A DNA stretch of 64,000 nucleotides, taken from Norana najaformis. Lineage: Eukaryota; Annelida; Clitellata; Crassiclitellata; Hormogastridae. Positions 1,426 to 61,897 of this stretch are shown here, piece after piece. The position numbers and the translations under genes are program-made. The notes beneath the pieces were generated by a model, which was not told where the DNA came from, ran no database searches, and saw nothing but the letters and a program-made list of their open reading frames with translations. Within the stretch, counting starts at the first letter, position 1. Each line of letters starts with the position of its first letter. The stretch covers positions 51,166,530 through 51,230,529 of the forward strand of contig OZ029914.1 of assembly GCA_964023275.1 (NCBI GenBank). The letters are read 5' to 3'.

Positions 1426-1483
1426 TAATAAATCTGTGCAATAAGAGGAATTAAATTTAGAAAAACTGTGCTTCATTTTTCAG

Positions 1484-16935: not shown

Positions 16936-17014
16936 TATTCATCATTCTTGACCTTGCAAAGACCTAGACTGTATGAATACGACTATTTAATAAATTGAAT
17001 GTTATTAGGCACAG

Positions 17015-35319: not shown

Positions 35320-35368
35320 AATAATCGACTGTGAATAACATTAACTAAACCAAAGTAATTGTTTTTAG

Positions 35369-35707
35369 GAAGCCAGTGTTCACAGAGTTTGCAGAATGTC
35401 AAGAACATAGCAGTTTACGAGGGACAGCTGAATACAATAATGAATCTATCAGCTAACCCACAAGACACAATGTGGACAATTAAACCAACGAATGACGAAT
35501 TTGAAACTTACACTATAACCAATTATGACGGCACTATAGATCCCTCGTTGACTGGGCTCTTTGCCATAAACGAGACCGGTCTAATGGTAAAGAATGCGAC
35601 AACGACTGAAAATAACGATAAAGGTGATCCGATATCAACGGCCGGGTTGTACATCGGACAATGTGCTAACAATCCGAACAAGACCGGCGCCAAGTTACTC
35701 GTCGTTC
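35369..35707 (+). CDS. Array copy 1: Ig-like domain D1
   Basis: A 339-nt phase 1-1 exon (acceptor gtttttag, donor gtaagt), 113 residues. Begins SQCSQSLQNVKNIAVYEG; this copy has Ser where all others have Asn. C-strand Trp lies in TMWTIKPTNDE, and the signature is PISTAGLYIGQCAN. The only cysteines are the N-terminal one and that of GQC; the B-strand position (NTIMNLSAN) has none. Sequons NLS, NET and NAT suggest glycosylation. Frame and motifs are intact. Confidence 0.88.
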
Positions 35708-35805
35708 GTAAGTTTTTTGACTATTTTTTCTGCCTTTCTCTCTTTTTATCATGTGTCTGAAATTGTATTGGAAAAATAATGATAGGTAAGCTTTCGGGGA
35801 AACTT

Positions 35806-35874
35806 ATTTGACATCGACGGCTGGGTTATTCATCGCAAAATGTGCCAAAAACACGAAGAAGACTGGCGCGAGTC
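35806..35874 (+). pseudogene. Truncated D1 relic inside every unit
   Basis: About 100 bases after D1, the sequence acatcgacggctgggttatt and onward repeats the 3' end of D1 (STAGLFIAKCAKN-like) and ends in its own cgtaagt donor, but the 5' two-thirds are gone and a deletion precedes the donor. It recurs at +2239 intervals in all ten units. A longer half-D1 sits at the same place at 58772. Confidence 0.7.
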
Positions 35875-36159
35875 GTAAGTAAATTTAATCGGATCTGGTG
35901 TGCAAACTATAACTGAAATAATATTGGAAGTATGAAAACAAGCGACTCTGTTTGAACTAAATTTACCTGTAAAGCTGCTTATCTTTGTCTAATACCAAAT
36001 TTACCGAATACTGTGCATGGATGGTAACAGGTGACAACAAACTTTGTTTAAATTGCAAATTGACCTTTGGCTTTGACACAGAAGACTTAACAAATATTTT
36101 TTCACTGAACTCGTTCCGTAATTCATTGCATATTTGTGTTACATAATCTTATCTTACAG

Positions 36160-36483
36160 GCAGTGGTCCACAATGTTCATGCAATCCCATCAATTCGAAC
36201 ACCAGCGTCAACCTGTCATGCAGTGTCTCTTATGCCGATGGCACCATCCACCCTATCGATGCTGTTATGACCTGGATAGTCAACGGAGCATATCATTCAA
36301 CGGAGACACCTATTCGGAATAAGACGGACGGATATGTCTTCGTGGCAACGTCAACCATTACAGTTGATAGTAGCGTTGTCAGTAATTATCAATGTCTACT
36401 GACATTTGATGCACCAACGGGTATTCGATATAATTATATCGCGGTGAACGCACCGAAGTTCAACGAATCTTGCTCAACGCCTG
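36160..36483 (+). CDS. Array copy 1: Ig domain D2
   Basis: A 324-nt phase 1-1 exon, 108 residues: PQCSCNPIN, B-strand VNLSCSVSYADG, C-strand AVMTWIVNG, E-strand STITVDSS, F-strand SNYQCLLTF, C-terminal NESCSTP. Canonical Ig cysteines and Trp present plus three extra Cys. Sequons NTS, NKT, NES. Confidence 0.9.
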
Positions 36484-36709
36484 GTGAGTTTGCAGTAGGA
36501 AATTAAAAAAAAAACAGGAAAATATGATAAAATGCATTAATTAACATGTAAACATTAGCCCAATAGTTTTCTATGAAATTCCAGTGTACAATTCTGCAGT
36601 ACTGTTAAGGATAATCATGTGTTTTATTCGCTCGTTTGATGAGAACTTAAAGCAATACTTTTTTCCAGAATATTGATCACTTACAAAATTTTCTGCATAT
36701 TGCTTTCAG

Positions 36710-36763
36710 TGTGCGGCAGTCAGTCAACGACAACAGCCGTTTCAACTGCTGCAGTGACAACAA
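36710..36763 (+). CDS. Array copy 1: short Cys-Thr stalk exon
   Basis: A 54-nt phase 1-1 exon after acceptor gctttcag, reading VCGSQSTTTAVSTAAVTT. The Cys is the partner-less sixth Cys of the D2-stalk pair. The A left at the donor plus GA of the next unit's D1 makes AGA, so units splice in frame. Copies 2-10 have the same exon at 38949, 41188, 43427, 45668, 47908, 50156, 52404, 54645 and 56884. Confidence 0.75.
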
Positions 36764-36837
36764 GTAAGAAGACTTAACATTAAAAAGTGATTATATGGCG
36801 TTTTATTACAGTTTAGGCTATTCGGTGGAAGTGTGAA

Positions 36838-36918
36838 TGTCATTTTATTAAAACATTGTGCATAATCGTGAATGTCATTTTATTAAAACATTGTGCATAA
36901 TCGTAATCGTAATCGTTA
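36838..36918 (+). repeat. Short direct repeat in the unit spacer
   Basis: A 35-base segment beginning tgaatgtcattttattaaaa occurs twice in a row, followed by three taatcg hexamers. Present in all ten units. Confidence 0.85.
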
Positions 36919-37607
36919 AATCGACAATTTTAAGCGTTACTTAAAGGTTAGGCGCAGTGCACAGGCTTAATCATGAGCGCTGCGTCAAGTCAAAGGGGGT
37001 TATTTAAATCCAGAGATTCCATGTGAAGAACAATATCCGGTTACGACGGAAGTGAAAGGGGAATTTGCGGAATTCAGGAGGGAGATCGTTCCAGGGTCGA
37101 CATGCATTGTAGTATATAGATCGGTTAGAGACTTTAAGATCATTGGAGGCGGGAAGGAGTGAGGTAAGAGGATGATCGGGTATAGCGGGGAGACTGGATG
37201 ATGAGTTTGGCTTATAGGTTAGCGAAAAAACTTGAAAATAAATGCGTTCTGGGATTTAAGAATAGCAGTGATATGGTGCAGAGATGCCATATCTTCTTCG
37301 CATGACAGCCCTCCGATAAAAGTTAAATGACGTCAAATGTTTCATTTGATTTCTTCGAATAATTCATAATACAGTAGCGCAAAACTAGCCGTTACTGTTG
37401 CAAAACTAACCGCATATACAACTAGTATATTCCTAAAGTTGTGAAGAATGAACATTGACCTACGCCTTGAAAACTGCTAAGTGAAGATGCTAACAGTGAA
37501 AGTGGTAAAGACAACTAAAATACTAAACCAGTGAAAACGATTAAACTAAACCAGTGAAAATAATCGACTGTGAATAACATTAACTAAACCAAAGTAATTG
37601 TTTTTAG

Positions 37608-37946
37608 GAAGCCAGTGTTCACAGAATTTGCAGAATGTCAAGAACATAGCAGTTTACGAGGGACAGCTGAATACAATAATGAATCTATCAGCTAACCCAC
37701 AAGACACAATGTGGACAATTAAACCAACGAATGACGAATTTGAAACTTACACTATAACCAATTATGACGGCACTATAGATCCCTCGTTGACTGGGCTCTT
37801 TGCCATAAACGAGACCGGTCTAATGGTAAAGAATGCGACAACGACTGAAAATAACGATAAAGGTGATCCGATATCAACGGCCGGGTTGTACATCGGACAA
37901 TGTGCTAACAATCCGAACAAGACCGGCGCCAAGTTACTCGTCGTTC
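37608..37946 (+). CDS. Array copy 2: D1
   Basis: Consensus D1 (CSQNLQN); frame intact. Confidence 0.88.
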
Positions 37947-38398
37947 GTAAGTTTTTTGACTATTTTTTCTGCCTTTCTCTCTTTTTATCATGTGTCTGAA
38001 ATTGTATTGGAAAAATAATGATAGGTAAGCTTTCGGGGAAACTTATTTGACATCGACGGCTGGGTTATTCATCGCAAAATGTGCCAAAAACACGAAGAAG
38101 ACTGGCGCGAGTCGTAAGTAAATTTAATCGGATCTGGTGTGCAAACTATAACTGAAATAATATTGGAAGTATGAAAACAAGCGACTCTGTTTGAACTAAA
38201 TTTACCTGTAAAGCTGCTTATCTTTGTCTAATACCAAATTTACCGAATACTGTGCATGGATGGTAACAGGTGACAACAAACTTTGTTTAAATTGCAAATT
38301 GACCTTTGGCTTTGACACAGAAGACTTAACAAATATTTTTTCACTGAACTCGTTCCGTAATTCATTGCATATTTGTGTTACATAATCTTATCTTACAG

Positions 38399-38722
38399 GC
38401 AGTGGTCCACAATGTTCATGCAATCCCATCAATTCGAACACCAGCGTCAACCTGTCATGCAGTGTCTCTTATGCCGATGGCACCATCCACCCTATCGATG
38501 CTGTTATGACCTGGATAGTCAACGGAGCATATCATTCAACGGAGACACCTATTCGGAATAAGACGGACGGATATGTCTTCGTGGCAACGTCAACCATTAC
38601 AGTTGATAGTAGCGTTGTCAGTAATTATCAATGTCTACTGACATTTGATGCACCAACGGGTATTCGATATAATTATATCGCGGTGAACGCACCGAAGTTC
38701 AACGAATCTTGCTCAACGCCTG
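38399..38722 (+). CDS. Array copy 2: D2
   Basis: Consensus D2; frame intact. Confidence 0.9.
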
Positions 38723-39846
38723 GTGAGTTTGCAGTAGGAAATTAAAAAAAAAACAGGAAAATATGATAAAATGCATTAATTAACATGTAAACATTAGCCC
38801 AATAGTTTTCTATGAAATTCCAGTGTACAATTCTGCAGTACTGTTAAGGATAATCATGTGTTTTATTCGCTCGTTTGATGAGAACTTAAAGCAATACTTT
38901 TTTCCAGAATATTGATCACTTACAAAATTTTCTGCATATTGCTTTCAGTGTGCGGCAGTCAGTCAACGACAACAGCCGTTTCAACTGCTGCAGTGACAAC
39001 AAGTAAGAAGACTTAACATTAAAAAGTGATTATATGGCGTTTTATTACAGTTTAGGCTATTCGGTGGAAGTGTGAATGTCATTTTATTAAAACATTGTGC
39101 ATAATCGTGAATGTCATTTTATTAAAACATTGTGCATAATCGTAATCGTAATCGTTAAATCGACAATTTTAAGCGTTACTTAAAGGTTAGGCGCAGTGCA
39201 CAGGCTTAATCATGAGCGCTGCGTCAAGTCAAAGGGGGTTATTTAAATCCAGAGATTCCATGTGAAGAACAATATCCGGTTACGACGGAAGTGAAAGGGG
39301 AATTTGCGGAATTCAGGAGGGAGATCGTTCCAGGGTCGACATGCATTGTAGTATATAGATCGGTTAGAGACTTTAAGATCATTGGAGGCGGGAAGGAGTG
39401 AGGTAAGAGGATGATCGGGTATAGCGGGGAGACTGGATGATGAGTTTGGCTTATAGGTTAGCGAAAAAACTTGAAAATAAATGCGTTCTGGGATTTAAGA
39501 ATAGCAGTGATATGGTGCAGAGATGCCATATCTTCTTCGCATGACAGCCCTCCGATAAAAGTTAAATGACGTCAAATGTTTCATTTGATTTCTTCGAATA
39601 ATTCATAATACAGTAGCGCAAAACTAGCCGTTACTGTTGCAAAACTAACCGCATATACAACTAGTATATTCCTAAAGTTGTGAAGAATGAACATTGACCT
39701 ACGCCTTGAAAACTGCTAAGTGAAGATGCTAACAGTGAAAGTGGTAAAGACAACTAAAATACTAAACCAGTGAAAACGATTAAACTAAACCAGTGAAAAT
39801 AATCGACTGTGAATAACATTAACTAAACCAAAGTAATTGTTTTTAG

Positions 39847-40185
39847 GAAGCCAGTGTTCACAGAATTTGCAGAATGTCAAGAACATAGCAGTTTACGAGG
39901 GACAGCTGAATACAATAATGAATCTATCAGCTAACCCACAAGACACAATGTGGACAATTAAACCAACGAATGACGAATTTGAAACTTACACTATAACCAA
40001 TTATGACGGCACTATAGATCCCTCGTTGACTGGGCTCTTTGCCATAAACGAGACCGGTCTAATGGTAAAGAATGCGACAACGACTGAAAATAACGATAAA
40101 GGTGATCCGATATCAACGGCCGGGTTGTACATCGGACAATGTGCTAACAATCCGAACAAGACCGGCGCCAAGTTACTCGTCGTTC
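39847..40185 (+). CDS. Array copy 3: D1
   Basis: Frame intact, identical to copy 2 by eye. Confidence 0.88.
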
Positions 40186-40637
40186 GTAAGTTTTTTGACT
40201 ATTTTTTCTGCCTTTCTCTCTTTTTATCATGTGTCTGAAATTGTATTGGAAAAATAATGATAGGTAAGCTTTCGGGGAAACTTATTTGACATCGACGGCT
40301 GGGTTATTCATCGCAAAATGTGCCAAAAACACGAAGAAGACTGGCGCGAGTCGTAAGTAAATTTAATCGGATCTGGTGTGCAAACTATAACTGAAATAAT
40401 ATTGGAAGTATGAAAACAAGCGACTCTGTTTGAACTAAATTTACCTGTAAAGCTGCTTATCTTTGTCTAATACCAAATTTACCGAATACTGTGCATGGAT
40501 GGTAACAGGTGACAACAAACTTTGTTTAAATTGCAAATTGACCTTTGGCTTTGACACAGAAGACTTAACAAATATTTTTTCACTGAACTCGTTCCGTAAT
40601 TCATTGCATATTTGTGTTACATAATCTTATCTTACAG

Positions 40638-40961
40638 GCAGTGGTCCACAATGTTCATGCAATCCCATCAATTCGAACACCAGCGTCAACCTGTCATGCA
40701 GTGTCTCTTATGCCGATGGCACCATCCACCCTATCGATGCTGTTATGACCTGGATAGTCAACGGAGCATATCATTCAACGGAGACACCTATTCGGAATAA
40801 GACGGACGGATATGTCTTCGTGGCAACGTCAACCATTACAGTTGATAGTAGCGTTGTCAGTAATTATCAATGTCTACTGACATTTGATGCACCAACGGGT
40901 ATTCGATATAATTATATCGCGGTGAACGCACCGAAGTTCAACGAATCTTGCTCAACGCCTG
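40638..40961 (+). CDS. Array copy 3: D2
   Basis: Frame intact, identical to copy 2 by eye. Confidence 0.9.
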
Positions 40962-42085
40962 GTGAGTTTGCAGTAGGAAATTAAAAAAAAAACAGGAAAA
41001 TATGATAAAATGCATTAATTAACATGTAAACATTAGCCCAATAGTTTTCTATGAAATTCCAGTGTACAATTCTGCAGTACTGTTAAGGATAATCATGTGT
41101 TTTATTCGCTCGTTTGATGAGAACTTAAAGCAATACTTTTTTCCAGAATATTGATCACTTACAAAATTTTCTGCATATTGCTTTCAGTGTGCGGCAGTCA
41201 GTCAACGACAACAGCCGTTTCAACTGCTGCAGTGACAACAAGTAAGAAGACTTAACATTAAAAAGTGATTATATGGCGTTTTATTACAGTTTAGGCTATT
41301 CGGTGGAAGTGTGAATGTCATTTTATTAAAACATTGTGCATAATCGTGAATGTCATTTTATTAAAACATTGTGCATAATCGTAATCGTAATCGTTAAATC
41401 GACAATTTTAAGCGTTACTTAAAGGTTAGGCGCAGTGCACAGGCTTAATCATGAGCGCTGCGTCAAGTCAAAGGGGGTTATTTAAATCCAGAGATTCCAT
41501 GTGAAGAACAATATCCGGTTACGACGGAAGTGAAAGGGGAATTTGCGGAATTCAGGAGGGAGATCGTTCCAGGGTCGACATGCATTGTAGTATATAGATC
41601 GGTTAGAGACTTTAAGATCATTGGAGGCGGGAAGGAGTGAGGTAAGAGGATGATCGGGTATAGCGGGGAGACTGGATGATGAGTTTGGCTTATAGGTTAG
41701 CGAAAAAACTTGAAAATAAATGCGTTCTGGGATTTAAGAATAGCAGTGATATGGTGCAGAGATGCCATATCTTCTTCGCATGACAGCCCTCCGATAAAAG
41801 TTAAATGACGTCAAATGTTTCATTTGATTTCTTCGAATAATTCATAATACAGTAGCGCAAAACTAGCCGTTACTGTTGCAAAACTAACCGCATATACAAC
41901 TAGTATATTCCTAAAGTTGTGAAGAATGAACATTGACCTACGCCTTGAAAACTGCTAAGTGAAGATGCTAACAGTGAAAGTGGTAAAGACAACTAAAATA
42001 CTAAACCAGTGAAAACGATTAAACTAAACCAGTGAAAATAATCGACTGTGAATAACATTAACTAAACCAAAGTAATTGTTTTTAG

Positions 42086-42424
42086 GAAGCCAGTGTTCAC
42101 AGAATTTGCAGAATGTCAAGAACATAGCAGTTTACGAGGGACAGCTGAATACAATAATGAATCTATCAGCTAACCCACAAGACACAATGTGGACAATTAA
42201 ACCAACGAATGACGAATTTGAAACTTACACTATAACCAATTATGACGGCACTATAGATCCCTCGTTGACTGGGCTCTTTGCCATAAACGAGACCGGTCTA
42301 ATGGTAAAGAATGCGACAACGACTGAAAATAACGATAAAGGTGATCCGATATCAACGGCCGGGTTGTACATCGGACAATGTGCTAACAATCCGAACAAGA
42401 CCGGCGCCAAGTTACTCGTCGTTC
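42086..42424 (+). CDS. Array copy 4: D1
   Basis: Frame intact. Confidence 0.88.
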
Positions 42425-42876
42425 GTAAGTTTTTTGACTATTTTTTCTGCCTTTCTCTCTTTTTATCATGTGTCTGAAATTGTATTGGAAAAATAATGAT
42501 AGGTAAGCTTTCGGGGAAACTTATTTGACATCGACGGCTGGGTTATTCATCGCAAAATGTGCCAAAAACACGAAGAAGACTGGCGCGAGTCGTAAGTAAA
42601 TTTAATCGGATCTGGTGTGCAAACTATAACTGAAATAATATTGGAAGTATGAAAACAAGCGACTCTGTTTGAACTAAATTTACCTGTAAAGCTGCTTATC
42701 TTTGTCTAATACCAAATTTACCGAATACTGTGCATGGATGGTAACAGGTGACAACAAACTTTGTTTAAATTGCAAATTGACCTTTGGCTTTGACACAGAA
42801 GACTTAACAAATATTTTTTCACTGAACTCGTTCCGTAATTCATTGCATATTTGTGTTACATAATCTTATCTTACAG

Positions 42877-43200
42877 GCAGTGGTCCACAATGTTCATGCA
42901 ATCCCATCAATTCGAACACCAGCGTCAACCTGTCATGCAGTGTCTCTTATGCCGATGGCACCATCCACCCTATCGATGCTGTTATGACCTGGATAGTCAA
43001 CGGAGCATATCATTCAACGGAGACACCTATTCGGAATAAGACGGACGGATATGTCTTCGTGGCAACGTCAACCATTACAGTTGATAGTAGCGTTGTCAGT
43101 AATTATCAATGTCTACTGACATTTGATGCACCAACGGGTATTCGATATAATTATATCGCGGTGAACGCACCGAAGTTCAACGAATCTTGCTCAACGCCTG
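42877..43200 (+). CDS. Array copy 4: D2
   Basis: Frame intact. Confidence 0.9.
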
Positions 43201-44324
43201 GTGAGTTTGCAGTAGGAAATTAAAAAAAAAACAGGAAAATATGATAAAATGCATTAATTAACATGTAAACATTAGCCCAATAGTTTTCTATGAAATTCCA
43301 GTGTACAATTCTGCAGTACTGTTAAGGATAATCATGTGTTTTATTCGCTCGTTTGATGAGAACTTAAAGCAATACTTTTTTCCAGAATATTGATCACTTA
43401 CAAAATTTTCTGCATATTGCTTTCAGTGTGCGGCAGTCAGTCAACGACAACAGCCGTTTCAACTGCTGCAGTGACAACAAGTAAGAAGACTTAACATTAA
43501 AAAGTGATTATATGGCGTTTTATTACAGTTTAGGCTATTCGGTGGAAGTGTGAATGTCATTTTATTAAAACATTGTGCATAATCGTGAATGTCATTTTAT
43601 TAAAACATTGTGCATAATCGTAATCGTAATCGTTAAATCGACAATTTTAAGCGTTACTTAAAGGTTAGGCGCAGTGCACAGGCTTAATCATGAGCGCTGC
43701 GTCAAGTCAAAGGGGGTTATTTAAATCCAGAGATTCCATGTGAAGAACAATATCCGGTTACGACGGAAGTGAAAGGGGAATTTGCGGAATTCAGGAGGGA
43801 GATCGTTCCAGGGTCGACATGCATTGTAGTATATAGATCGGTTAGAGACTTTAAGATCATTGGAGGCGGGAAGGAGTGAGGTAAGAGGATGATCGGGTAT
43901 AGCGGGGAGACTGGATGATGAGTTTGGCTTATAGGTTAGCGAAAAAACTTGAAAATAAATGCGTTCTGGGATTTAAGAATAGCAGTGATATGGTGCAGAG
44001 ATGCCATATCTTCTTCGCATGACAGCCCTCCGATAAAAGTTAAATGACGTCAAATGTTTCATTTGATTTCTTCGAATAATTCATAATACAGTAGCGCAAA
44101 ACTAGCCGTTACTGTTGCAAAACTAACCGCATATACAACTAGTATATTCCTAAAGTTGTGAAGAATGAACATTGACCTACGCCTTGAAAACTGCTAAGTG
44201 AAGATGCTAACAGTGAAAGTGGTAAAGACAACTAAAATACTAAACCAGTGAAAACGATTAAACTAAACCAGTGAAAATAATCGACTGTGAATAACATTAA
44301 CTAAACCAAAGTAATTGTTTTTAG

Positions 44325-44663
44325 GAAGCCAGTGTTCACAGAATTTGCAGAATGTCAAGAACATAGCAGTTTACGAGGGACAGCTGAATACAATAATGAA
44401 TCTATCAGCTAACCCACAAGACACAATGTGGACAATTAAACCAACGAATGACGAATTTGAAACTTACACTATAACCAATTATGACGGCACTATAGATCCC
44501 TCGTTGACTGGGCTCTTTGCCATAAACGAGACCGGTCTAATGGTAAAGAATGCGACAACGACTGAAAATAACGATAAAGGTGATCCGATATCAACGGCCG
44601 GGTTGTACATCGGACAATGTGCTAACAATCCGAACAAGACCGGCGCCAAGTTACTCGTCGTTC
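44325..44663 (+). CDS. Array copy 5: D1
   Basis: Frame intact. Confidence 0.88.
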
Positions 44664-45115
44664 GTAAGTTTTTTGACTATTTTTTCTGCCTTTCTCTCTT
44701 TTTATCATGTGTCTGAAATTGTATTGGAAAAATAATGATAGGTAAGCTTTCGGGGAAACTTATTTGACATCGACGGCTGGGTTATTCATCGCAAAATGTG
44801 CCAAAAACACGAAGAAGACTGGCGCGAGTCGTAAGTAAATTTAATCGGATCTGGTGTGCAAACTATAACTGAAATAATATTGGAAGTATGAAAACAAGCG
44901 ACTCTGTTTGAACTAAATTTACCTGTAAAGCTGCTTATCTTTGTCTAATACCAAATTTACCGAATACTGTGCATGGATGGTAACAGGTGACAACAAACTT
45001 TGTTTAAATTGCAAATTGACCTTTGGCTTTGACACAGAAGACTTAACAAATATTTTTTCACTGAACTCGTTCCGTAATTCATTGCATATTTGTGTTACAT
45101 AATCTTATCTTACAG

Positions 45116-45440
45116 GCAGTGGTCCACAATGTTCATGCAATCCCATCAATTCGAACACCAGCGTCAACCTGTCATGCAGTGTCTCTTATGCCGATGGCAC
45201 CATCCACCCTATCGATGCTGTTATGACCTGGATAGTCAACGGAGCATATCATTCAACGGAGACACCTATTCGGAATAAGACGGACGGATATGTCTTCGTG
45301 GCAACGTCAACCATTACAGTTGATAGTAGCGTTTGTCAGTAATTATCAATGTCTACTGACATTTGATGCACCAACGGGTATTCGATATAATTATATCGCG
45401 GTGAACGCACCGAAGTTCAACGAATCTTGCTCAACGCCTG
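45116..45440 (+). CDS. Array copy 5: D2, one-base frameshift
   Basis: One extra T (gcgtttgtcag for gcgttgtcag near 45332) breaks the frame just before the F strand. Probably a sequence error, since it opens the noisy patch. Confidence 0.65.
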
Positions 45441-46565
45441 GTGAGTTTGCAGTAGGAAATTAAAAAAAAACAGGAAAATATGATAAAATGCATTAATTAA
45501 CATGTAAACATTAGCCCAATAGTTTTCTATGAAATTCCAGTGTACAATTCTGCAGTACTGTTAAGGATAATCATGTGTTTTATTCGCTCGTTTGATGAGA
45601 ACTTAAAGCAATACTTTTTTCCCAGAATATTGATCACTTACAAAAATTTTCTGCATATTGCTTTCAGTGTGCGGCAGTCAGTCAACGACAACAGCCGTTT
45701 CAACTGCTGCAGTGACAACAAGTAAGAAGACTTAACATTAAAAAGTGATTATATGGCGTTTTATTACAGTTTAGGCTATTCGGTGGAAGTGTGAATGTCA
45801 TTTTATTAAAACATTGTGCATAATCGTGAATGTCATTTTATTAAAACATTGTGCATAATCGTAATCGTAATCGTTAAATCGACAATTTTAAGCGTTACTT
45901 AAAGGTTAGGCGCAGTGCACAGGCTTAATCATGAGCGCTGCGTCATGTCAAAGGGGGTTATTTAAATCCAGAGATTCCATGTGAAGAACAATATCCGGTT
46001 ACGACGGAAGTGAAAGGGGAATTTGCGGAATTCAGGAGGGAGATCGTTCCAGGGTCGACATGCATTGTAGTATATAGATCGGTTAGAGACTTTAAGATCA
46101 TTGGAGGCGGGAAGGAGTGAGGTAAGAGGATGATCGGGTATAGCGGGGAGACTGGATGATGAGTTTGGGCTTATAGGTTAGCGAAAAAACTTGAAAATAA
46201 ATGCGTTCTGGGATTTAAGAATAGCAGTGATATGGTGCAGAGATGCCATATCTTCTTCGCAAGACAGCCCTCCGATAAAGTTAAATGACGTCAAATGTTT
46301 CATTTGATTTCTTCGAATAATTCATAATACAGTAGCGCAAAACTAGCCGTTACTGTTGCAAAACTAACCGCATATACAACTAGTATATTCCTAAAGTTGT
46401 GAAGAATGAACATTGACCTACGCCTTGAAAACTGCTAAGTGAAGATGCTAACAGTGAAAGTGGTAAAGACAACTAAAATACTAAACCAGTGAAAACGATT
46501 AAACTAAACCAGTGAAAATAATCGACTGTGAATAACATTAACTAAACCAAAGTAATTGTTTTTAG

Positions 46566-46904
46566 GAAGCCAGTGTTCACAGAATTTGCAGAATGTCAAG
46601 AACATAGCAGTTTACGAGGGGACAGCTGAATACAATAATGAATCTATCAGCTAACCCACAAGACACAATGTGGACAATTAAACCAACGAATGACGAATTT
46701 GAAACTTACACTATAACCAATTATGACGGCACTATAGATCCCTCGTTGACTGGGCTCTTTGCCATAAACGAGACCGGTCTAATGGTAAAGAATGCGACAA
46801 CGACTGAAAATAACGATAAAGGTGATCCGATATCAACGGCCGGTTGTACATCGGACAATGTGCTAACAATCCGAACAAGACCGGCGCCAAGTTACTCGTC
46901 GTTC
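46566..46904 (+). CDS. Array copy 6: D1, compensating frameshifts
   Basis: Extra G near 46620 (gaggggac) and missing G near 46842 (gccggttg). The length is again 339 nt but the codons between the two changes are shifted, destroying most of the domain as written. Confidence 0.6.
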
Positions 46905-47355
46905 GTAAGTTTTTTGACTATTTTTTCTGCCTTTCTCTCTTTTATCATGTGTCTGAAATTGTATTGGAAAAATAATGATAGGTAAGCTTTCGGGGAAACT
47001 TATTTGACATCGACGGCTGGGTTATTCATCGCAAAATGTGCCAAAAACACGAAGAAGACTGGCGCGAGTCGTAAGTAAATTTAATCGGATCTGGTGTGCA
47101 AACTATAACTGAAATAATATTGGAAGTATGAAAACAAGCGACTCTGTTTGAACTAAATTTACCTGTAAAGCTGCTTATCTTTGTCTAATACCAAATTTAC
47201 CGAATACTGTGCATGGATGGTAACAGGTGACAACAAACTTTGTTTAAATTGCAAATTGACCTTTGGCTTTGACACAGAAGACTTAACAAATATTTTTTCA
47301 CTGAACTCGTTCCGTAATTCATTGCATATTTGTGTTACATAATCTTATCTTACAG

Positions 47356-47681
47356 GCAGTGGTCCACAATGTTCATGCAATCCCATCAATTCGAACACCA
47401 GCGTCAACCTGTCATGCAGTGTCTCTTATGCCGATGGCACCATCCACCCTATCGATGCTGTTATGACCTGGATAGTCAACGGAGCATATCATTCAACGGA
47501 GACACCTATTCGGGAATAAGACGGACGGATATGTCTTCGTGGCAACGTCAACCATTACAGTTGATAGTAGCGTTGTCAGTAATTATCAATGTCTACTGAC
47601 ATTTGATGCACCAACGGGGTATTCGATATAATTATATCGCGGTGAACGCACCGAAGTTCAACGAATCTTGCTCAACGCCTG
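47356..47681 (+). CDS. Array copy 6: D2, two extra bases
   Basis: Extra G near 47513 (attcgggaat) and near 47617 (acggggta). Confidence 0.6.
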
Positions 47682-48811
47682 GTGAGTTTGCAGTAGGAAA
47701 TTAAAAAAAAAACAGGAAAATATGATAAAATGCATTAATTAACATGTAAACATTAGCCCAATAGTTTTCTATGAAATTCCAGTGTACAATTCTGCAGTAC
47801 TGTTAAGGATAATCATGTGTTTTATTCGCTCGTTTGATGAGAACTTAAAGCAATACTTTTTTCCAGAATATTGATCACTTACAAAATTTTCTGCATATTG
47901 CTTTCAGTGTGCGGCAGTCAGTCAACGACAACAGCCGTTTCAACTGCTGCAGTGACAACAAGTAAGAAGACTTAACATTAAAAAGTGATTATATGGCGTT
48001 TTTATTACAGTTTAGGCTATTCGGTGGAAGTGTGAATGTCATTTTATTAAAACATTGTGCATAATCGTGAATGTCATTTTATTAAAACATTGTGCATAAT
48101 CGTAATCGTAATCGTTTAAATCGACAATTTTAAGCGTTACTTAAAGGTTAGGCGCAGTGCACAGGCTTAATCATGAGCGCTGCGTCAAGTCAAAGGGGGT
48201 TATTTAAATCCAGAGATTCCATGTGAAGAACAATATCCGGTTACGACGGAAGTGAGAAAGGGGGGGAATTTGCGGAATTCAGGAGGGAGATCGTTCCAGG
48301 GTCGACATGCATTGTAGTATATAGATCGGTTAGAGACTTTAAGATCATTGGAGGCGGGAAGGAGTGAGTAAGAGGATGATCGGGTATAGCGGGGAGACTG
48401 GATGATGAGTTTGGCTTATAGGTTAGCGAAAAAACTTGAAAATAAATGCGTTCTGGGATTTAAGAATAGCAGTGATATGGTGCAGAGATGCCATATCTTC
48501 TTCGCATGACAGCCCTCCGATAAAAAGTTAAATGACGTCAAATGTTTCATTTGATTTCTTCGAATAATTCATAATACAGTAGCGCAAAACTAGCCGTTAC
48601 TGTTGCAAAACTAACCGCATATACAACTAGTATATCCTAAAGTTGTGAAGAATGAACATTGACCTACGCCTTGAAAACTGCTAAGTGAAGATGCTAACAG
48701 TGAAAGTGGTAAAGACAACTAAAATACTAAACCAGTGAAAACGATTAAACTAAACCAGTGAAAATAATCGACTGTGAATAACATTAACTAAACCAAAGTA
48801 ATTGTTTTTAG

Positions 48812-49149
48812 GAAGCCAGTGTTCACAGAATTTGCAGGAATGTCAAGAACATAGCAGTTTACGAGGGACAGCTGAATACAATAATGAATCTATCAGCTAA
48901 CCCACAAGACACAATGTGGACAATTAAACCAACGAATGACGAATTGAAACTTACACTATAACCAATTATGACGGCACTATAGATCCCTCGTTGACTGGGC
49001 TCTTTGCCATAAACGAGACCGGTCTAATGGTAAGAATGCGACAACGACTGAAAATAACGATAAAGGTGATCCGATATCAACGGCCGGGTTGTACATCGGA
49101 CAATGTGCTAACAATCCGAACAAGACCGGCGCCAAGTTACTCGTCGTTC
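48812..49149 (+). CDS. Array copy 7: D1, three one-base indels
   Basis: Extra G near 48837 (gcaggaatg), missing T near 48945 (gaattgaaac), missing A near 49031 (ggtaagaatg). Confidence 0.6.
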
Positions 49150-49603
49150 GTAAGTTTTTTGACTATTTTTTCTGCCTTTCTCTCTTTTTATCATGTGTCT
49201 GAAATTGTATTGGAAAAATAATGATAGGTAAGCTTTCGGGGAAACTTATTTGACATCGACGGCTGGGTTATTCATCGCAAAATGTGCCCAAAAACACGAA
49301 GAAGACTGGCGCGAGTCGTAAGTAAATTTAATCGGATCTGGGTGTGCAAACTATAACTGAAATAATATTGGAAGTATGAAAACAAGCGACTCTGTTTGAA
49401 CTAAATTTACCTGTAAAGCTGCTTATCTTTGTCTAATACCAAATTTACCGAATACTGTGCATGGATGGTAACAGGTGACAACAAACTTTGTTTAAATTGC
49501 AAATTGACCTTTGGCTTTGACACAGAAGACTTAACAAATATTTTTTCACTGAACTCGTTCCGTAATTCATTGCATATTTGTGTTACATAATCTTATCTTA
49601 CAG

Positions 49604-49929
49604 GCAGTGGTCCACAATGTTCATGCAATCCCATCAATTCGAACACCAGCGTCAACCTGTCATGCAGTGTCTCTTATGCCGATGGCACCATCCACCCTAT
49701 CGATGCTGTTATGACCTGGATAGTCAACGGAGCATATCATTCAACGGAGACACCTATTCGGAATAAGACGGACGGATATGTCTTCGTGGCAACGTCAACC
49801 CATTACAGTTGATAGTAGCGGTTGTCAGTAATTATCAATGTCTACTGACATTTGATGCACCAACGGGTATTCGATATAATTATATCGCGGTGAACGCACC
49901 GAAGTTCAACGAATCTTGCTCAACGCCTG
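49604..49929 (+). CDS. Array copy 7: D2, two extra bases
   Basis: Extra C near 49800 (caacccatta) and extra G near 49820 (agcggttg). Confidence 0.6.
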
Positions 49930-51058
49930 GTGAGTTTGCAGTAGGAAATTAAAAAAAAAACAGGAAAATATGATAAAATGCATTAATTAACATGTAAACA
50001 TTAGCCCAATAGTTTTCTATGAAATTCCAGTGTACAATTCTGCAGTACTGTTAAGGATAATCATGTGTTTTATTCGCTCGTTTGATGAGAACTTAAAGCA
50101 ATACTTTTTTCCAGAATATTGATCACTTACAAAATTTTCTGCATATTGCTTTCAGTGTGCGGCAGTCAGTCAACGACAACAGCCGTTTCAACTGCTGCAG
50201 TGACAACAAGTAAGAAGACTTAACATTAAAAAGTGATTATATGGCGTTTTATTACAGTTTAGGGCTATTCGGTGGAAGTGTGAATGTCATTTTATTAAAA
50301 CATTGTGCATAATCGTGAATGTCATTTTATTAAAACATTGTGCATAATCGTAATCGTAATCGTTAAATCGACAATTTTAAGCGTTACTTAAAGGTTAGGC
50401 GCAGTGCACAGGCTTAATCATGAGCGCTGCGTCAAGTCAAAGGGGGTTATTTAAATCCAGAGATTCCATGTGAAGAACAATATCCGTTACGACGGAAGTG
50501 AAAGGGGAATTTGCGGAATTCAGGAGGGGAGATCGTTCCAGGGTCGACATGCATTGTAGTATATAGATCGGTTAGAGACTTTAAGATCATTGGAGGCGGG
50601 AAGGAGTGAGGTAAGAGGATGATCGGGTATAGCGGGGGAGACTGGATGATGAGTTTGGCTTATAGGTTAGCGAAAAAACTTGAAAATAAATGCGTTCTGG
50701 GATTTAAGAATAGCAGTGATATGGTGCAGAGATGCCATATCTTCTTCGCATGACAGCCCTCCGATAAAAGTTAAATGACGTCAAATGTTTCATTTGATTT
50801 CTTCGAATAATTCATAATACAGTAGCGCAAAACTAGCCGTTACTGTTGCAAAACTAACCGCATATACAACTAGTATATTCCTAAAGTTGTGAAGAATGAA
50901 CATTGACCTACGCCTTGAAAAACTGCTAAGTGAAGATGCTAACAGTGAAAGTGGTAAAGACAACTAAAATACTAAACCAGTGAAAACGGATTAAACTAAA
51001 CCAGTGAAAATAATCGACTGTGAATAACATTAACTAAACCAAAGTAATTGTTTTTTAG

Positions 51059-51398
51059 GAAGCCAGTGTTCACAGAATTTGCAGAATGTCAAGAACATAG
51101 CAGTTTACGAGGGACAGCTGAATACAATAATGAATCTATCAGCTAACCCACAAGACACAATGTGGACAATTAAACCAACGAATGACGAATTTGAAACTTA
51201 CACTATAACCAATTATGACGGCACTATAGATCCCTCGTTGACTGGGCTCTTTGCCATAAACGAGACCGGTCTAATGGTAAAGAATGCGACAACGACTGAA
51301 AAATAACGATAAAGGTGATCCGATATCAACGGCCGGGTTGTACATCGGACAATGTGCTAACAATCCGAACAAGACCGGCGCCAAGTTACTCGTCGTTC
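51059..51398 (+). CDS. Array copy 8: D1, one extra base
   Basis: One extra A in the run near 51300 (ctgaaaaataac). Confidence 0.62.
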
Positions 51399-51851
51399 GT
51401 AAGTTTTTTGACTATTTTTTCTGCCTTTCTCTCTTTTTATCATGTGTCTGAAATTGTATTGGAAAAATAATGATAGGTAAGCTTTCGGGGAAACTTATTT
51501 GACATCGACGGCTGGGTTATTCATCGCAAAATGTGCCAAAAACACGAAGAAGACTGGCGCGAGGTCGTAAGTAAATTTAATCGGATCTGGTGTGCAAACT
51601 ATAACTGAAATAATATTGGAAGTATGAAAACAAGCGACTCTGTTTGAACTAAATTTACCTGTAAAGCTGCTTATCTTTGTCTAATACCAAATTTACCGAA
51701 TACTGTGCATGGATGGTAACAGGTGACAACAAACTTTGTTTAAATTGCAAATTGACCTTTGGCTTTGACACAGAAGACTTAACAAATATTTTTTCACTGA
51801 ACTCGTTCCGTAATTCATTGCATATTTGTGTTACATAATCTTATCTTACAG

Positions 51852-52177
51852 GCAGTGGTCCACAATGTTCATGCAATCCCATCAATTCGGAACACCAGCG
51901 TCAACCTGTCATGCAGTGTCTCTTATGCCGATGGCACCATCCACCCTATCGATGCTGTTATGGACCTGGATAGTCAACGGAGCATATCATTCAACGGAGA
52001 CACCTATTCGGAATAAGACGGACGGATATGTCTTCGTGGCAACGTCAACCATTACAGTTGATAGTAGCGTTGTCAGTAATTATCAATGTCTACTGACATT
52101 TGATGCACCAACGGGTATTCGATATAATTATATCGCGGTGAACGCACCGAAGTTCAACGAATCTTGCTCAACGCCTG
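51852..52177 (+). CDS. Array copy 8: D2, two extra bases
   Basis: Extra G near 51890 (attcggaaca) and near 51962 (atggacctgg). Confidence 0.6.
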
Positions 52178-53303
52178 GTGAGTTTGCAGTAGGAAATTAA
52201 AAAAAAAACAGGAAAATATGATAAAATGCATTAATTAACATGTAAACATTAGCCCAATAGTTTTCTATGAAATTCCAGTGTACAATTCTGCAGTACTGTT
52301 AAGGATAATCATGTGTTTTATTCGCTCGTTTGATGAGAACTTAAAGCAATACTTTTTTCCAGAATATTGATCACTTACAAAATTTTCTGCATATTGCTTT
52401 CAGTGTGCGGCAGTCAGTCAACGACAACAGCCGTTTCAACTGCTGCAGTGACAACAAGTAAGAAGACTTAACATTAAAAAGTGATTATATGGCGTTTTAT
52501 TACAGTTTAGGCTATTCGGTGGAAGTGTGAATGTCATTTTATTAAAACATTGTGCATAATCGTGAATGTCATTTTATTAAAACATTGTGCATAATCGTAA
52601 TCGTAATCGTTAAATCGACAATTTTAAGCGTTACTTAAAGGTTAGGCGCAGTGCACAGGCTTAATCATGAGCGCTGCGTCAAGTCAAAGGGGGTTATTTA
52701 AATCCAGAGATTCCATGTGAAGAACAATATCCGGTTACGACGGAAGTGAAAGGGGAATTTGCGGAATTCAGGAGGGAGATCGTTCCAGGGTCGACATGCA
52801 TTGTAGTATATAGATCGGTTAGAGACTTTAAGATCATTGGAGGCGGGAAGGAGTGAGGTAAGAGGATGATCGGGTATAGCGGGGAGACTGGATGATGAGT
52901 TTGGCTTATAGGTTAGCGAAAAAACTTGAAAATAAATGCGTTCTGGGATTTAAGAATAGCAGTGATATGGTGCAGAGATGCCATATCTTCTTCGCATGAC
53001 AGCCCTCCGATAAAAAGTTAAATGACGTCAAATGTTTCATTTGATTTCTTCGAATAATTCATAATACAGTAGCGCAAAACTAGCCGTTACTGTTGCAAAA
53101 CTAACCGCATATACAACTAGTATATTCCTAAAGTTGTGAAGAATGAACATTGACCTACGCCTTGAAAACTGCTAAGTGAAGATGCTAACAGTGAAAGTGG
53201 TAAAGGACAACTAAAATACTAAACCAGTGAAAACGATTAAACTAAACCAGTGAAAATAATCGACTGTGAATAACATTAACTAAACCAAAGTAATTGTTTT
53301 TAG

Positions 53304-53642
53304 GAAGCCAGTGTTCACAGAATTTGCAGAATGTCAAGAACATAGCAGTTTACGAGGGACAGCTGAATACAATAATGAATCTATCAGCTAACCCACAAGA
53401 CACAATGTGGACAATTAAACCAACGAATGACGAATTTGAAACTTACACTATAACCAATTATGACGGCACTATAGATCCCTCGTTGACTGGGCTCTTTGCC
53501 ATAAACGAGACCGGTCTAATGGTAAAGAATGCGACAACGACTGAAAATAACGATAAAGGTGATCCGATATCAACGGCCGGGTTGTACATCGGACAATGTG
53601 CTAACAATCCGAACAAGACCGGCGCCAAGTTACTCGTCGTTC
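53304..53642 (+). CDS. Array copy 9: D1
   Basis: Frame intact. Confidence 0.88.
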
Positions 53643-54094
53643 GTAAGTTTTTTGACTATTTTTTCTGCCTTTCTCTCTTTTTATCATGTGTCTGAAATTG
53701 TATTGGAAAAATAATGATAGGTAAGCTTTCGGGGAAACTTATTTGACATCGACGGCTGGGTTATTCATCGCAAAATGTGCCAAAAACACGAAGAAGACTG
53801 GCGCGAGTCGTAAGTAAATTTAATCGGATCTGGTGTGCAAACTATAACTGAAATAATATTGGAAGTATGAAAACAAGCGACTCTGTTTGAACTAAATTTA
53901 CCTGTAAAGCTGCTTATCTTTGTCTAATACCAAATTTACCGAATACTGTGCATGGATGGTAACAGGTGACAACAAACTTTGTTTAAATTGCAAATTGACC
54001 TTTGGCTTTGACACAGAAGACTTAACAAATATTTTTTCACTGAACTCGTTCCGTAATTCATTGCATATTTGTGTTACATAATCTTATCTTACAG

Positions 54095-54418
54095 GCAGTG
54101 GTCCACAATGTTCATGCAATCCCATCAATTCGAACACCAGCGTCAACCTGTCATGCAGTGTCTCTTATGCCGATGGCACCATCCACCCTATCGATGCTGT
54201 TATGACCTGGATAGTCAACGGAGCATATCATTCAACGGAGACACCTATTCGGAATAAGACGGACGGATATGTCTTCGTGGCAACGTCAACCATTACAGTT
54301 GATAGTAGCGTTGTCAGTAATTATCAATGTCTACTGACATTTGATGCACCAACGGGTATTCGATATAATTATATCGCGGTGAACGCACCGAAGTTCAACG
54401 AATCTTGCTCAACGCCTG
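54095..54418 (+). CDS. Array copy 9: D2
   Basis: Frame intact. Confidence 0.9.
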
Positions 54419-55542
54419 GTGAGTTTGCAGTAGGAAATTAAAAAAAAAACAGGAAAATATGATAAAATGCATTAATTAACATGTAAACATTAGCCCAATA
54501 GTTTTCTATGAAATTCCAGTGTACAATTCTGCAGTACTGTTAAGGATAATCATGTGTTTTATTCGCTCGTTTGATGAGAACTTAAAGCAATACTTTTTTC
54601 CAGAATATTGATCACTTACAAAATTTTCTGCATATTGCTTTCAGTGTGCGGCAGTCAGTCAACGACAACAGCCGTTTCAACTGCTGCAGTGACAACAAGT
54701 AAGAAGACTTAACATTAAAAAGTGATTATATGGCGTTTTATTACAGTTTAGGCTATTCGGTGGAAGTGTGAATGTCATTTTATTAAAACATTGTGCATAA
54801 TCGTGAATGTCATTTTATTAAAACATTGTGCATAATCGTAATCGTAATCGTTAAATCGACAATTTTAAGCGTTACTTAAAGGTTAGGCGCAGTGCACAGG
54901 CTTAATCATGAGCGCTGCGTCAAGTCAAAGGGGGTTATTTAAATCCAGAGATTCCATGTGAAGAACAATATCCGGTTACGACGGAAGTGAAAGGGGAATT
55001 TGCGGAATTCAGGAGGGAGATCGTTCCAGGGTCGACATGCATTGTAGTATATAGATCGGTTAGAGACTTTAAGATCATTGGAGGCGGGAAGGAGTGAGGT
55101 AAGAGGATGATCGGGTATAGCGGGGAGACTGGATGATGAGTTTGGCTTATAGGTTAGCGAAAAAACTTGAAAATAAATGCGTTCTGGGATTTAAGAATAG
55201 CAGTGATATGGTGCAGAGATGCCATATCTTCTTCGCATGACAGCCCTCCGATAAAAGTTAAATGACGTCAAATGTTTCATTTGATTTCTTCGAATAATTC
55301 ATAATACAGTAGCGCAAAACTAGCCGTTACTGTTGCAAAACTAACCGCATATACAACTAGTATATTCCTAAAGTTGTGAAGAATGAACATTGACCTACGC
55401 CTTGAAAACTGCTAAGTGAAGATGCTAACAGTGAAAGTGGTAAAGACAACTAAAATACTAAACCAGTGAAAACGATTAAACTAAACCAGTGAAAATAATC
55501 GACTGTGAATAACATTAACTAAACCAAAGTAATTGTTTTTAG

Positions 55543-55881
55543 GAAGCCAGTGTTCACAGAATTTGCAGAATGTCAAGAACATAGCAGTTTACGAGGGACA
55601 GCTGAATACAATAATGAATCTATCAGCTAACCCACAAGACACAATGTGGACAATTAAACCAACGAATGACGAATTTGAAACTTACACTATAACCAATTAT
55701 GACGGCACTATAGATCCCTCGTTGACTGGGCTCTTTGCCATAAACGAGACCGGTCTAATGGTAAAGAATGCGACAACGACTGAAAATAACGATAAAGGTG
55801 ATCCGATATCAACGGCCGGGTTGTACATCGGACAATGTGCTAACAATCCGAACAAGACCGGCGCCAAGTTACTCGTCGTTC
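55543..55881 (+). CDS. Array copy 10: D1
   Basis: Frame intact. Confidence 0.88.
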
Positions 55882-56333
55882 GTAAGTTTTTTGACTATTT
55901 TTTCTGCCTTTCTCTCTTTTTATCATGTGTCTGAAATTGTATTGGAAAAATAATGATAGGTAAGCTTTCGGGGAAACTTATTTGACATCGACGGCTGGGT
56001 TATTCATCGCAAAATGTGCCAAAAACACGAAGAAGACTGGCGCGAGTCGTAAGTAAATTTAATCGGATCTGGTGTGCAAACTATAACTGAAATAATATTG
56101 GAAGTATGAAAACAAGCGACTCTGTTTGAACTAAATTTACCTGTAAAGCTGCTTATCTTTGTCTAATACCAAATTTACCGAATACTGTGCATGGATGGTA
56201 ACAGGTGACAACAAACTTTGTTTAAATTGCAAATTGACCTTTGGCTTTGACACAGAAGACTTAACAAATATTTTTTCACTGAACTCGTTCCGTAATTCAT
56301 TGCATATTTGTGTTACATAATCTTATCTTACAG

Positions 56334-56657
56334 GCAGTGGTCCACAATGTTCATGCAATCCCATCAATTCGAACACCAGCGTCAACCTGTCATGCAGTGT
56401 CTCTTATGCCGATGGCACCATCCACCCTATCGATGCTGTTATGACCTGGATAGTCAACGGAGCATATCATTCAACGGAGACACCTATTCGGAATAAGACG
56501 GACGGATATGTCTTCGTGGCAACGTCAACCATTACAGTTGATAGTAGCGTTGTCAGTAATTATCAATGTCTACTGACATTTGATGCACCAACGGGTATTC
56601 GATATAATTATATCGCGGTGAACGCACCGAAGTTCAACGAATCTTGCTCAACGCCTG
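56334..56657 (+). CDS. Array copy 10: D2
   Basis: Frame intact. Confidence 0.9.
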
Positions 56658-57732
56658 GTGAGTTTGCAGTAGGAAATTAAAAAAAAAACAGGAAAATATG
56701 ATAAAATGCATTAATTAACATGTAAACATTAGCCCAATAGTTTTCTATGAAATTCCAGTGTACAATTCTGCAGTACTGTTAAGGATAATCATGTGTTTTA
56801 TTCGCTCGTTTGATGAGAACTTAAAGCAATACTTTTTTCCAGAATATTGATCACTTACAAAATTTTCTGCATATTGCTTTCAGTGTGCGGCAGTCAGTCA
56901 ACGACAACAGCCGTTTCAACTGCTGCAGTGACAACAAGTAAGAAGACTTAACATTAAAAAGTGATTATATGGCGTTTTATTACAGTTTAGGCTATTCGGT
57001 GGAAGTGTGAATGTCATTTTATTAAAACATTGTGCATAATCGTGAATGTCATTTTATTAAAACATTGTGCATAATCGTAATCGTAATCGTTAAATCGACA
57101 ATTTTAAGCGTTACTTAAAGGTTAGGCGCAGTGCACAGGCTTAATCATGAGCGCTGCGTCAAGTCAAAGGGGGTTATTTAAATCCAGAGATTCCATGTGA
57201 AGAACAATATCCGGTTACGACGGAAGTGAAAGGGGAATTTGCGGAATTCAGGAGGGAGATCGTTCCAGGGTCGACATGCATTGTAGTATATAGATCGGTT
57301 AGAGACTTTAAGATCATTGGAGGCGGGAAGGAGTGAGGTAAGAGGATGATCGGGTATAGCGGGGAGACTGGATGATGAGTTTGGCTTATAGGTTAGCGAA
57401 AAAACTTGAAAATAAATGCGTTCTGGGATTTAAGAATAGCAGTGATATGGTGCAGAGATGCCATATCTTCTTCGCATGACAGCCCTCCGATAAAAGTTAA
57501 ATGACGTCAAATGTTTCATTTGATTTCTTCGAATAATTCATAATACAGTAGCGCAAAACTAGCCGTTACTGTTGCAAAACTAACCGCATATACAACTAGT
57601 ATATTCCTAAAGTTGTGAAGAATGAACATTGACCTACGCCTTGAAAACTGCTAAGTGAAGATGCTAACAATGAAAGTGGTAAAGACAACTAAAATACTAA
57701 ACCAGTGAAAACGATTAAACTAAACCACTGAA

Positions 57733-58342: not shown

Positions 58343-58675
58343 CTTCGATTGCTCCATGCTCAGCGCCACTCAAGAACACCGCAGATTACGAGGGAGATCA
58401 GAATACACTCCTATATTTTCCAGCTGAACCCAGCAACGTTAAGTGGACGGTTTTTTCAACGACAAATGAGTTAGACGAATACGTGATCACAAATTTTGAC
58501 GGTACAGTAGATCCTTCTATGGCGGGAGACTATGCAATTGGTCCATCGGGTTTAACGGTACTCAATGCAACAACAACAACAGCTGAAAATCAACATCCGT
58601 TATCAACGGCTGGATTGTACAAGGTAGAATGCGCCGGCCAAACCGTAACCCGCAGCGTCAAACTTCTTGTCGTCC
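58343..58675 (+). CDS. Last module: Ig-like domain D1
   Basis: A 333-nt phase 1-1 exon, 111 residues. Starts SIAPCSAPLKNTADYEGDQN (the usual IAVYEG is TADYEG), has VKWTVFSTTNE and PLSTAGLYKVECAG. Cysteine pattern as in other D1. Clearly diverged from the array copies and nearer to modules 1 and 3. Confidence 0.85.
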
Positions 58676-59507: not shown

Positions 59508-59834
59508 ATGAAGGTCCAACGTGTACGTGCACTCAGGGCAGTTCCTCAACCAGCGTTGATTTGTCGTGCGGTGTCACTTATGCTGATAGCACATACTCTC
59601 CTATCCCAGCAGGTTTTACTTGGTATCGTGATGGTATTTTCTATGCTAATTATACGCCTGACGTCAGGACTACCTCTGCGGACAGTTTGTACGTCATTGA
59701 GAAATCCACCATTACGGTCGATGATAGTACGACTTCGACCTATACATGCGTTCAGACATTTGGCCAACCAAAGGACATTCATGATAATATTGCAACGAAC
59801 GCGCCGAAGTATATTCGGGAATGCACACCATCGG
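59508..59834 (+). CDS. Last module: Ig domain D2
   Basis: A 327-nt phase 1-1 exon, 109 residues: PTCTCTQ, VDLSCGVTYADS, AGFTWYRDG, STITVDDS, STYTCVQTF, IRECTPS. Same five-Cys pattern. Loop region DVRTTSADSLYVIEK differs strongly from the other D2 copies. Confidence 0.88.
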
Positions 59835-61786: not shown

Positions 61787-61897
61787 CATGTGGAACCGCT
61801 GCTCAATTCCTACAGCTTCCTGTTGTTCCAGCACCTCAAGACCCTCCAACTGCAACGACCCTCCAACCACAAGGGGTCGTTGCTTCAACCACAAGAG
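61787..61897 (+). CDS. Last module: Cys-Thr/Pro stalk exon
   Basis: A 111-nt phase 1-1 exon (acceptor gtttag, donor gtcagt), 37 residues: ACGTAAQFLQLPVVPAPQDP then PTATTLQPQGVVASTTR. It starts with the stalk Cys but is richer in Pro and Gln than the other stalks. Confidence 0.7.

Follow-up and report, generated by a model that had tools for sequence, protein, structure and literature searches.

An assembled array of ten near-identical immunoglobulin exon cassettes in a predicted receptor gene of Norana najaformis

Array, repeat unit and predicted gene

We analysed 64,000 nucleotides of the genome of the annelid Norana najaformis (the window; positions 51,166,530-51,230,529 of contig OZ029914.1, here C2, 51,800,131 nucleotides long), in which ten immunoglobulin (Ig) exon units lie head-to-tail as assembled. 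One assembly was examined (GCA_964023275.1; 608 Mb, 17 contigs), and coordinates follow window numbering, continued past 64,000 (or below 1) for flanking sequence. We consider it fairly probable that the units form an array of Ig exon cassettes within one fused receptor gene (23296-64095) and that the array was expanded by unequal exchange. At the sequence level there is good support for the array and for its position inside a gene, and the copy number of ten is provisional.

A scan of periods from 100 to 12,000 gave a dominant period of 2239. The spacings of 35-bp markers common to all units were 2239, 2239, 2239, 2241, 2241, 2248, 2247, 2241, and 2239. When a single unit was used as query, the eight other full-length copies aligned to it across 2.24 kb with identities of 98.8-99.6% and two mismatches apiece, which excludes a chance origin of the array; the same query matched the two partial array ends at 99.5% and 99.2% identity. 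The array is uniform through exons, introns, and spacer alike. Thus, the period scan, the marker spacings and the alignments bear out an earlier note on this window, which had described ten head-to-tail units of period 2239 with such uniformity. The range given there (35320-57732) was right at its start and 6 bp short at its end. The array and the recognised parts of its unit are as follows.

35320-57738, plus strand: tandem array of ten units (period scan, marker spacing, alignment)
35320, 37559, 39798, 42037, 44278, 46519, 48767, 51014, 53255, 55494, plus strand: unit starts; units 5-8 are shifted by a few bases by central insertions and deletions (indels)
35369-35707, plus strand: unit Ig1 exon, 113 amino acids (aa), phase 1-1, in every unit (homology, open frame, AG/GT borders)
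36160-36483, plus strand: unit Ig2 exon, 108 aa, phase 1-1, in every unit (Ig fold match)
36710-36763, plus strand: unit stalk exon, 18 aa, VCGSQSTTTAVSTAAVTT, phase 1-1, in every unit
37004-37255, minus strand: open reading frame (ORF) in a dispersed-repeat fragment, in each unit; parts match other chromosomes

Each unit has three coding exons, Ig1, Ig2 and a Ser/Thr stalk, all bordered by AG/GT and all of phase 1-1. Eight N-glycosylation sequons and as many cysteines lie in the 239 aa encoded by a unit. The non-coding part consists of intron, spacer, a portion of a repeat known on other chromosomes, and a degenerate remnant of an Ig1 3' end. We read the dispersed-repeat fragment as similar to a long interspersed nuclear element (LINE); its minus-strand ORF had no match in Pfam. 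A leader scan whose control leaders were recovered found no leader-like exon within the unit, and queries with the transmembrane (TM) and tail exons of the surrounding receptor cluster gave no match at 21.1-66.2 kb save one weak minus-strand match (E 0.92). Since the unit has no recognised leader, TM segment, or stop, it is, as judged from this anatomy, an exon cassette and not a receptor. The possibility of ten separate receptor genes was ruled out because neither a leader nor a cluster-type TM segment was found in a unit. The term Ig-receptor module, used in the earlier note, therefore holds for the module (two Ig exons and a stalk exon) and fails for a receptor per unit. A hydrophobic stretch at 38894 (mean hydropathy 2.0) lies outside any recognised exon.

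A structural model of Ig2, made from a 12-sequence alignment (A2), had seven strands and a predicted local distance difference test score (pLDDT) of 67.6. Its best matches in the PDB were Ig-fold proteins (FcRn, MHC, VCAM-1, antibody), with a Foldseek probability of 1.00 for most of the best 50 of 1,931 matches; these 50 reached template-modelling scores of up to 0.58 and a best E of 4.8e-3. Pfam gave a weak match of Ig2 to PF00047 (ig) with an E of 0.009, below the cut-off. In the model, Ig2 has the Ig fold.

The exons predicted around the array are listed below.

23296-23344, plus strand: leader exon MELLLIVGLCFHFSIT, ending in phase 1 (leader scan; similar leaders at 5887 and at 69203, outside the window)
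25834-26157, plus strand: upstream-pair Ig1 exon, phase 1-1 (exon scan, homology)
26375-26698, plus strand: upstream-pair Ig2 exon, phase 1-1 (exon scan, homology)
28489-28737, plus strand: Ser/Thr-rich stalk exon, phase 1-1; a further candidate lies at 27711-27806
58343-58675, plus strand: post-array Ig1 exon, phase 1-1 (exon scan)
59508-59834, plus strand: post-array Ig2 exon, phase 1-1 (exon scan)
61787-61897, plus strand: Pro/Thr-rich stalk exon, phase 1-1, donor GTCAGT (exon scan)
62296-62425, plus strand: predicted TM exon LEIVLIVIVGCLLLTVLAFFIWCCRFC, phase 1 to 2 (looser TM scan; related sequence at 51.46-51.65 Mb on C2)
63902-64000, plus strand: terminal cytoplasmic exon, running beyond the window to a stop TAG at 64095

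When these exons were spliced in silico, the part from the leader through unit 4 gave 1,271 aa with 0 stops, and the part from unit 9 to the stop at 64095 gave an open 843 aa. With ten clean units, the predicted coding length is 9,210 nt, or ~3,070 aa with about 24 Ig domains. A leader, a single TM segment and a cytoplasmic tail, the features of a type I membrane receptor, are all predicted for the array gene. No Y-x-x-L/I/V motif was found in its tail, although such motifs are present in other tails of the cluster (e.g. at 17536 and 20877), so that signalling would need a partner. A gene without a TM segment had been considered and was dropped: the first scan also missed known TM segments of the cluster, and the looser, controlled scan found the one at 62.3 kb.

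Single-unit paralogs and the origin of the array

Downstream blocks within 64413-88010 (segment C) repeat 18492-59875 at 93-97% identity, and segment C has one unit where the window has ten. This single-unit paralog, 26 kb downstream of the array end, provides a built-in control for the timing and origin of the array. Single places were likewise matched in paralog E (near 158.9 kb) and paralog G (C2:51.4524 Mb); the search scored 39 of 1,511 candidates and omitted the array itself, so place counts are lower bounds. The unit is 94.8% identical to paralog C outside gaps, with a noncoding divergence of 5.9%. Since segment C carries a single unit, the expansion is recent, the duplication having followed the split from paralog C. 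Segment C was also considered as a false haplotype duplication and rejected in this role, because no block (matches of at least 400 bp) extends the 18492/64413 alignment leftward.

Only one leader of the array gene is well supported, and it lies 12 kb upstream of the array; the gene has a single tail. Segment C differs in that a TM segment and tail (75981, 76456) belong to its first gene and a separate leader (81521, MANTPIKFLLLCTCILLPPTTN) to the single-unit gene. The window copy lacks 75614-77830. The alignment of the paralogs places the two differences as follows.

29752-29753, no strand: breakpoint at which segment C has an extra 2.2 kb (75614-77830) with a TM exon and a YxxL-type tail
32640-34174, no strand: sequence unmatched in the 224-kb region, replacing 80724-82535 of segment C (leader exon at 81521)

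Because the TM segment and tail of the upstream gene and the leader of the unit gene are both lost relative to segment C, two neighbouring receptor genes were probably fused into the array gene. The fused gene would run from the leader at 23296 to the stop at 64095 and encode, if expressed and spliced as predicted, a type I membrane protein with ~24 Ig domains, provided that all ten units are real. The unit junction joins right-flank to left-flank sequence at AATAAT, which is found in both flanks. It may thus be proposed that a lone 2.24-kb block with Ig1, Ig2, stalk and introns was first duplicated in tandem at this 6-bp microhomology.

The TM region of the array gene has relatives at six other places in the cluster (seven matches, one being the window itself). 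In five such loci that were retrieved, the pattern used picked out the TM peptide in L036, L037, and L040 and gave no TM peptide in L038 or L039. L037-L040 share the terminal exon including its stop, and L036 ends ahead of the stop. The TM segment is lacking in paralogs C, E, and F, whereas L036-L040 have it whole or in part. We had considered 61873-64117 as an insertion in the array gene and dropped this because L037-L040 carry it whole or in part, except for 62516-63572; therefore, paralogs C, E, and F have probably lost it. Between the predicted TM and tail exons, 62516-63572 contains a reverse-transcriptase-like ORF, which is also present in the 96%-identical L036 and not in L037-L040. Pfam gave no match for this ORF, and LINE is our own label for it.

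The losses of leader and tail beside the array would also be expected if the array were a dead relic, with the gene damaged by fusion and the cassette amplifying passively in the absence of any product. The in-frame stop in the second Ig1 exon of paralog C, the lack of a TM segment in this paralog, and the insertion with the reverse-transcriptase-like ORF at about 62516-63572 fit this explanation as well. In contrast, the array gene retains its TM exon and stop, and wherever the sequence is clean its exons keep an open frame and fit in phase. The ratio of nonsynonymous to synonymous rates (dN/dS) for the unit Ig1 is 0.36 against paralog C and 0.31-0.36 against paralogs C, E, and G, which also argues against a relic. 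Over six comparisons, the ratio ranged from 0.31 to 0.85 for Ig1 and from 0.50 to 1.23 for Ig2. We thus regard the relic as rather improbable and prefer the fused gene with its array open in the clean parts.

Differences among units and the number of copies

The ten-unit alignment contained 46 single-letter differences in counted columns, and one more lies near the right edge of unit 10 (57728), giving 47. The earlier note had placed the differences mainly at the outer edges, but just three are found there (35387, 57670, 57728) and the other 44 fall centrally.

45332-53205, no strand: central noise-like stretch of 7.9 kb, from the second half of unit 5 to unit 8, with 44 differences (ten-unit alignment)

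The central differences are 32 insertions, nine deletions and three substitutions. All 32 insertions copy an adjacent base, against a random expectation of 45%, and all nine deletions lie inside runs; six of the 44 are clustered in one 7-bp stretch. With a 5-bp insertion taken as one event, the array core has 37 one-base indel events and 3 substitutions, whereas two paralogous segments compared over six stretches (13,728 aligned bases) differ by 19 one-base gaps and 459 substitutions (Fisher p 7e-39). The central differences therefore look like homopolymer-length noise rather than decay; we take this noise to be of the PacBio homopolymer kind. Since they are dominated by indels and bound to runs, the frameshifts of units 5-8 are not to be read as those of pseudogenes, and decay was ruled out by the indel-to-substitution ratio, which is reversed relative to the paralogs. 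The Ig1 exon frame of unit 5 is open (44315-44716).

The clean units (1-4, 9, 10) are identical save for three edge substitutions, at position 68 of unit 1 (35387) and at positions 2177 (57670) and 2235 (57728) of unit 10. The base G at position 68 is private to unit 1. Units 1-9 share one state at positions 2177 and 2235, and unit 10 shows the state of paralogs C and E at both; paralog G matches unit 10 at the first of these positions, but at 2235 its base differs from both states. The direct comparison of these edge states with the paralogs took in units 1, 2, and 10. Distinct edges with agreeing interiors are the pattern left by unequal crossing-over. The earlier note had suggested recent amplification homogenised by unequal crossing-over or gene conversion, and the near-identical clean units, the ancestral right edge of unit 10, and the one-unit segment of 93-97% identity all favour this proposal. 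After the initial duplication, one or both of these processes may have expanded the array and left only its outer edges distinct.

The same edge markers (a G private to unit 1, one right edge in units 1-9, an ancestral right edge in unit 10) would be expected if an assembler had cycled round a repeat of two copies; therefore, the pattern alone is no proof of ten copies. The true array might consist of two to four units if the assembler walked the repeat cycle or used an odd read, and the noisy central 7.9 kb looks as if backed by few reads. A cycle walk, however, would repeat one consensus, whereas units 5-8 each have their own noise, which indicates that at least 3.5 units in a row are covered by real read sequence. 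We thus consider such inflation unlikely. It is because the centre is noisy and poorly polished that the unit number is treated as provisional. If the number is inflated, the array calls for caution on tandem exon counts in long-read assemblies.

Tandem Ig exons within one gene also recall Dscam, in which hypervariable, differing Ig exons lie in tandem and are selected by splicing. Mutually exclusive use of the exons could be imagined here by analogy. In contrast to the divergent exon variants of Dscam, the copies in the array are near-identical: the clean ones encode the same protein, with unit 1 differing by one residue, so that choosing among them would yield no diversity. In addition, the symmetric exons preserve the frame on joint inclusion. 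Alternative exon use of the Dscam type is thus very improbable. A literature search for Ig exon arrays with copy-number variation turned up one paper, on Dscam, which is no proof of their absence from print.

Several observations weigh against one intact, intragenic cassette gene. The Ig1 of the unit had no match in Pfam, and its structural model (pLDDT 47) was too poor for use. None of the best 50 of the 1,931 fold matches of Ig2 had an E of 0.001 or below. The Ig1 acceptor of the unit is pyrimidine-poor, and the exon scan missed it but listed that of the paralog. The donor of the stalk exon at 61787-61897 is weak. Weak alternative leaders at 31429 and 32797 make a separate gene start ahead of the array possible. 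Units 5-8 are frameshifted as assembled, though we read this as noise. The Ig2 dN/dS of 1.23 against paralog C reflects few changes (2 synonymous, 8 nonsynonymous), and we therefore make no claim of constraint for Ig2. With these points included, we retain the intragenic cassette array as our preferred explanation.

Length variation, known systems and other features of the cluster

Since all three unit exons are of phase 1-1, whole-unit gain or loss would be tolerable for the frame; every added unit would contribute 239 aa, that is, two Ig domains and a stalk. It is plausible that copy number affects receptor length, because the exons have this phase and because the clean parts of the predicted gene keep an open frame all the way from leader to stop. 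The array may expand and contract by whole units. More units would give a longer reach and, if the domains bind themselves or a repeated ligand, a higher avidity. A receptor of variable length, in which unequal exchange changes the number of Ig pairs in the fused gene and individuals differ in reach or avidity, is a tentative extension of this reading. The earlier note had likewise proposed copy-number polymorphism between individuals, with which receptor length or avidity may vary; the one-unit segment C is a paralog and not a second allele of this locus. Provided that the copy number is real and does vary, the length of the receptor would be a heritable trait readable from DNA, and the array would form a natural series relating ectodomain length and domain number to recognition.

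The nearest known kind of array is the intragenic exon variable number tandem repeat (VNTR), of which kringle IV type 2 (KIV-2) of human LPA is the clearest example known to us. According to PMC4378929, KIV-2 consists of 5.5-kb tandem units with two exons each, the exons being 98-100% alike; people carry 1 to more than 40 copies, and protein size follows copy number. As in the LPA repeat described there, whole exon-intron units lie in tandem inside one gene, here one predicted from sequence. The exons of the array unit are symmetric in phase. The LPA units encode kringles of a plasma protein (PMC4378929), whereas those of the array encode Ig domains of a predicted membrane receptor in one assembly. 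The earlier note had called a coding satellite of this kind unusual; the kind is already known from the LPA repeat as described in PMC4378929. What is striking is the presence of nearly identical Ig cassettes within a single open receptor gene; the general mechanism is already known. Should the length-variable reading be true, the array would be an LPA-like VNTR of Ig domains, giving germline individuality through domain number and not through sequence.

The cluster around the array resembles invertebrate allorecognition clusters in its setting. Alr proteins also have Ig domains. Botryllus FcoR and Hydractinia Alr are described as clustered families of cell-surface recognition receptors with tyrosine-motif tails (PMC12065747), and the ALRs of Podocoryna as further clustered allorecognition receptors (PMC13119343). 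The likeness to FcoR and Alr, clustered multigene recognition receptors, is one of setting and published description (PMC12065747). FcoRs differ in that they carry a sushi domain besides Ig domains, and the part of their published description available to us mentions no near-identical exon array (PMC12065747). Allorecognition receptors of the immunoreceptor tyrosine-based inhibitory or activation motif (ITIM/ITAM) type have tyrosine-motif tails, unlike the array gene. As to taxonomic markers, the phosphagen-kinase exons matched the arginine kinase PDB 4rf6 best (235 bits), with a taurocyamine kinase (230) and a lombricine kinase (221) close behind and creatine kinases lower (at most 180). The enzyme 4rf6 is that of a sea anemone, and taken by itself this comparison would lean weakly to a cnidarian. 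Searches for GH6 and GFP gave no match, in runs in which no control gave a signal either.

Further features were observed in the cluster. Paralog E contains a 7.9-kb minisatellite (150198-158068, L022 to L023) with a period of 42 bp, which reads as a Thr/Pro mucin-like exon with repeats of about 14 aa; it is flanked by a leader (149348) and by the Ig1 exon of the single unit (158.9 kb). Thr and Pro are encoded in one frame where the minisatellite begins and in another where it ends. This minisatellite is a second coding-type repeat expansion in the cluster. At 20098-21107, a TM exon and a tyrosine-motif tail lie within 200 bp downstream of a leader exon MANTSLKFLLLCIWILLPLTTN, with no Ig exon between; this is perhaps a short adaptor-like gene, whose duplicate at 66.0-67.0 kb carries a stop in the tail. 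At 5887-17799 there is a receptor gene that appears complete, with two Ig pairs, stalk exons, a TM segment at 17017, and Y-x-x-L/I motifs in its tail. On C2 from -44414 to 1144, there is a recent tandem segmental duplication of about 25 kb with 95-98% identity, in which related TM and tail exons accompany more divergent Ig exons.

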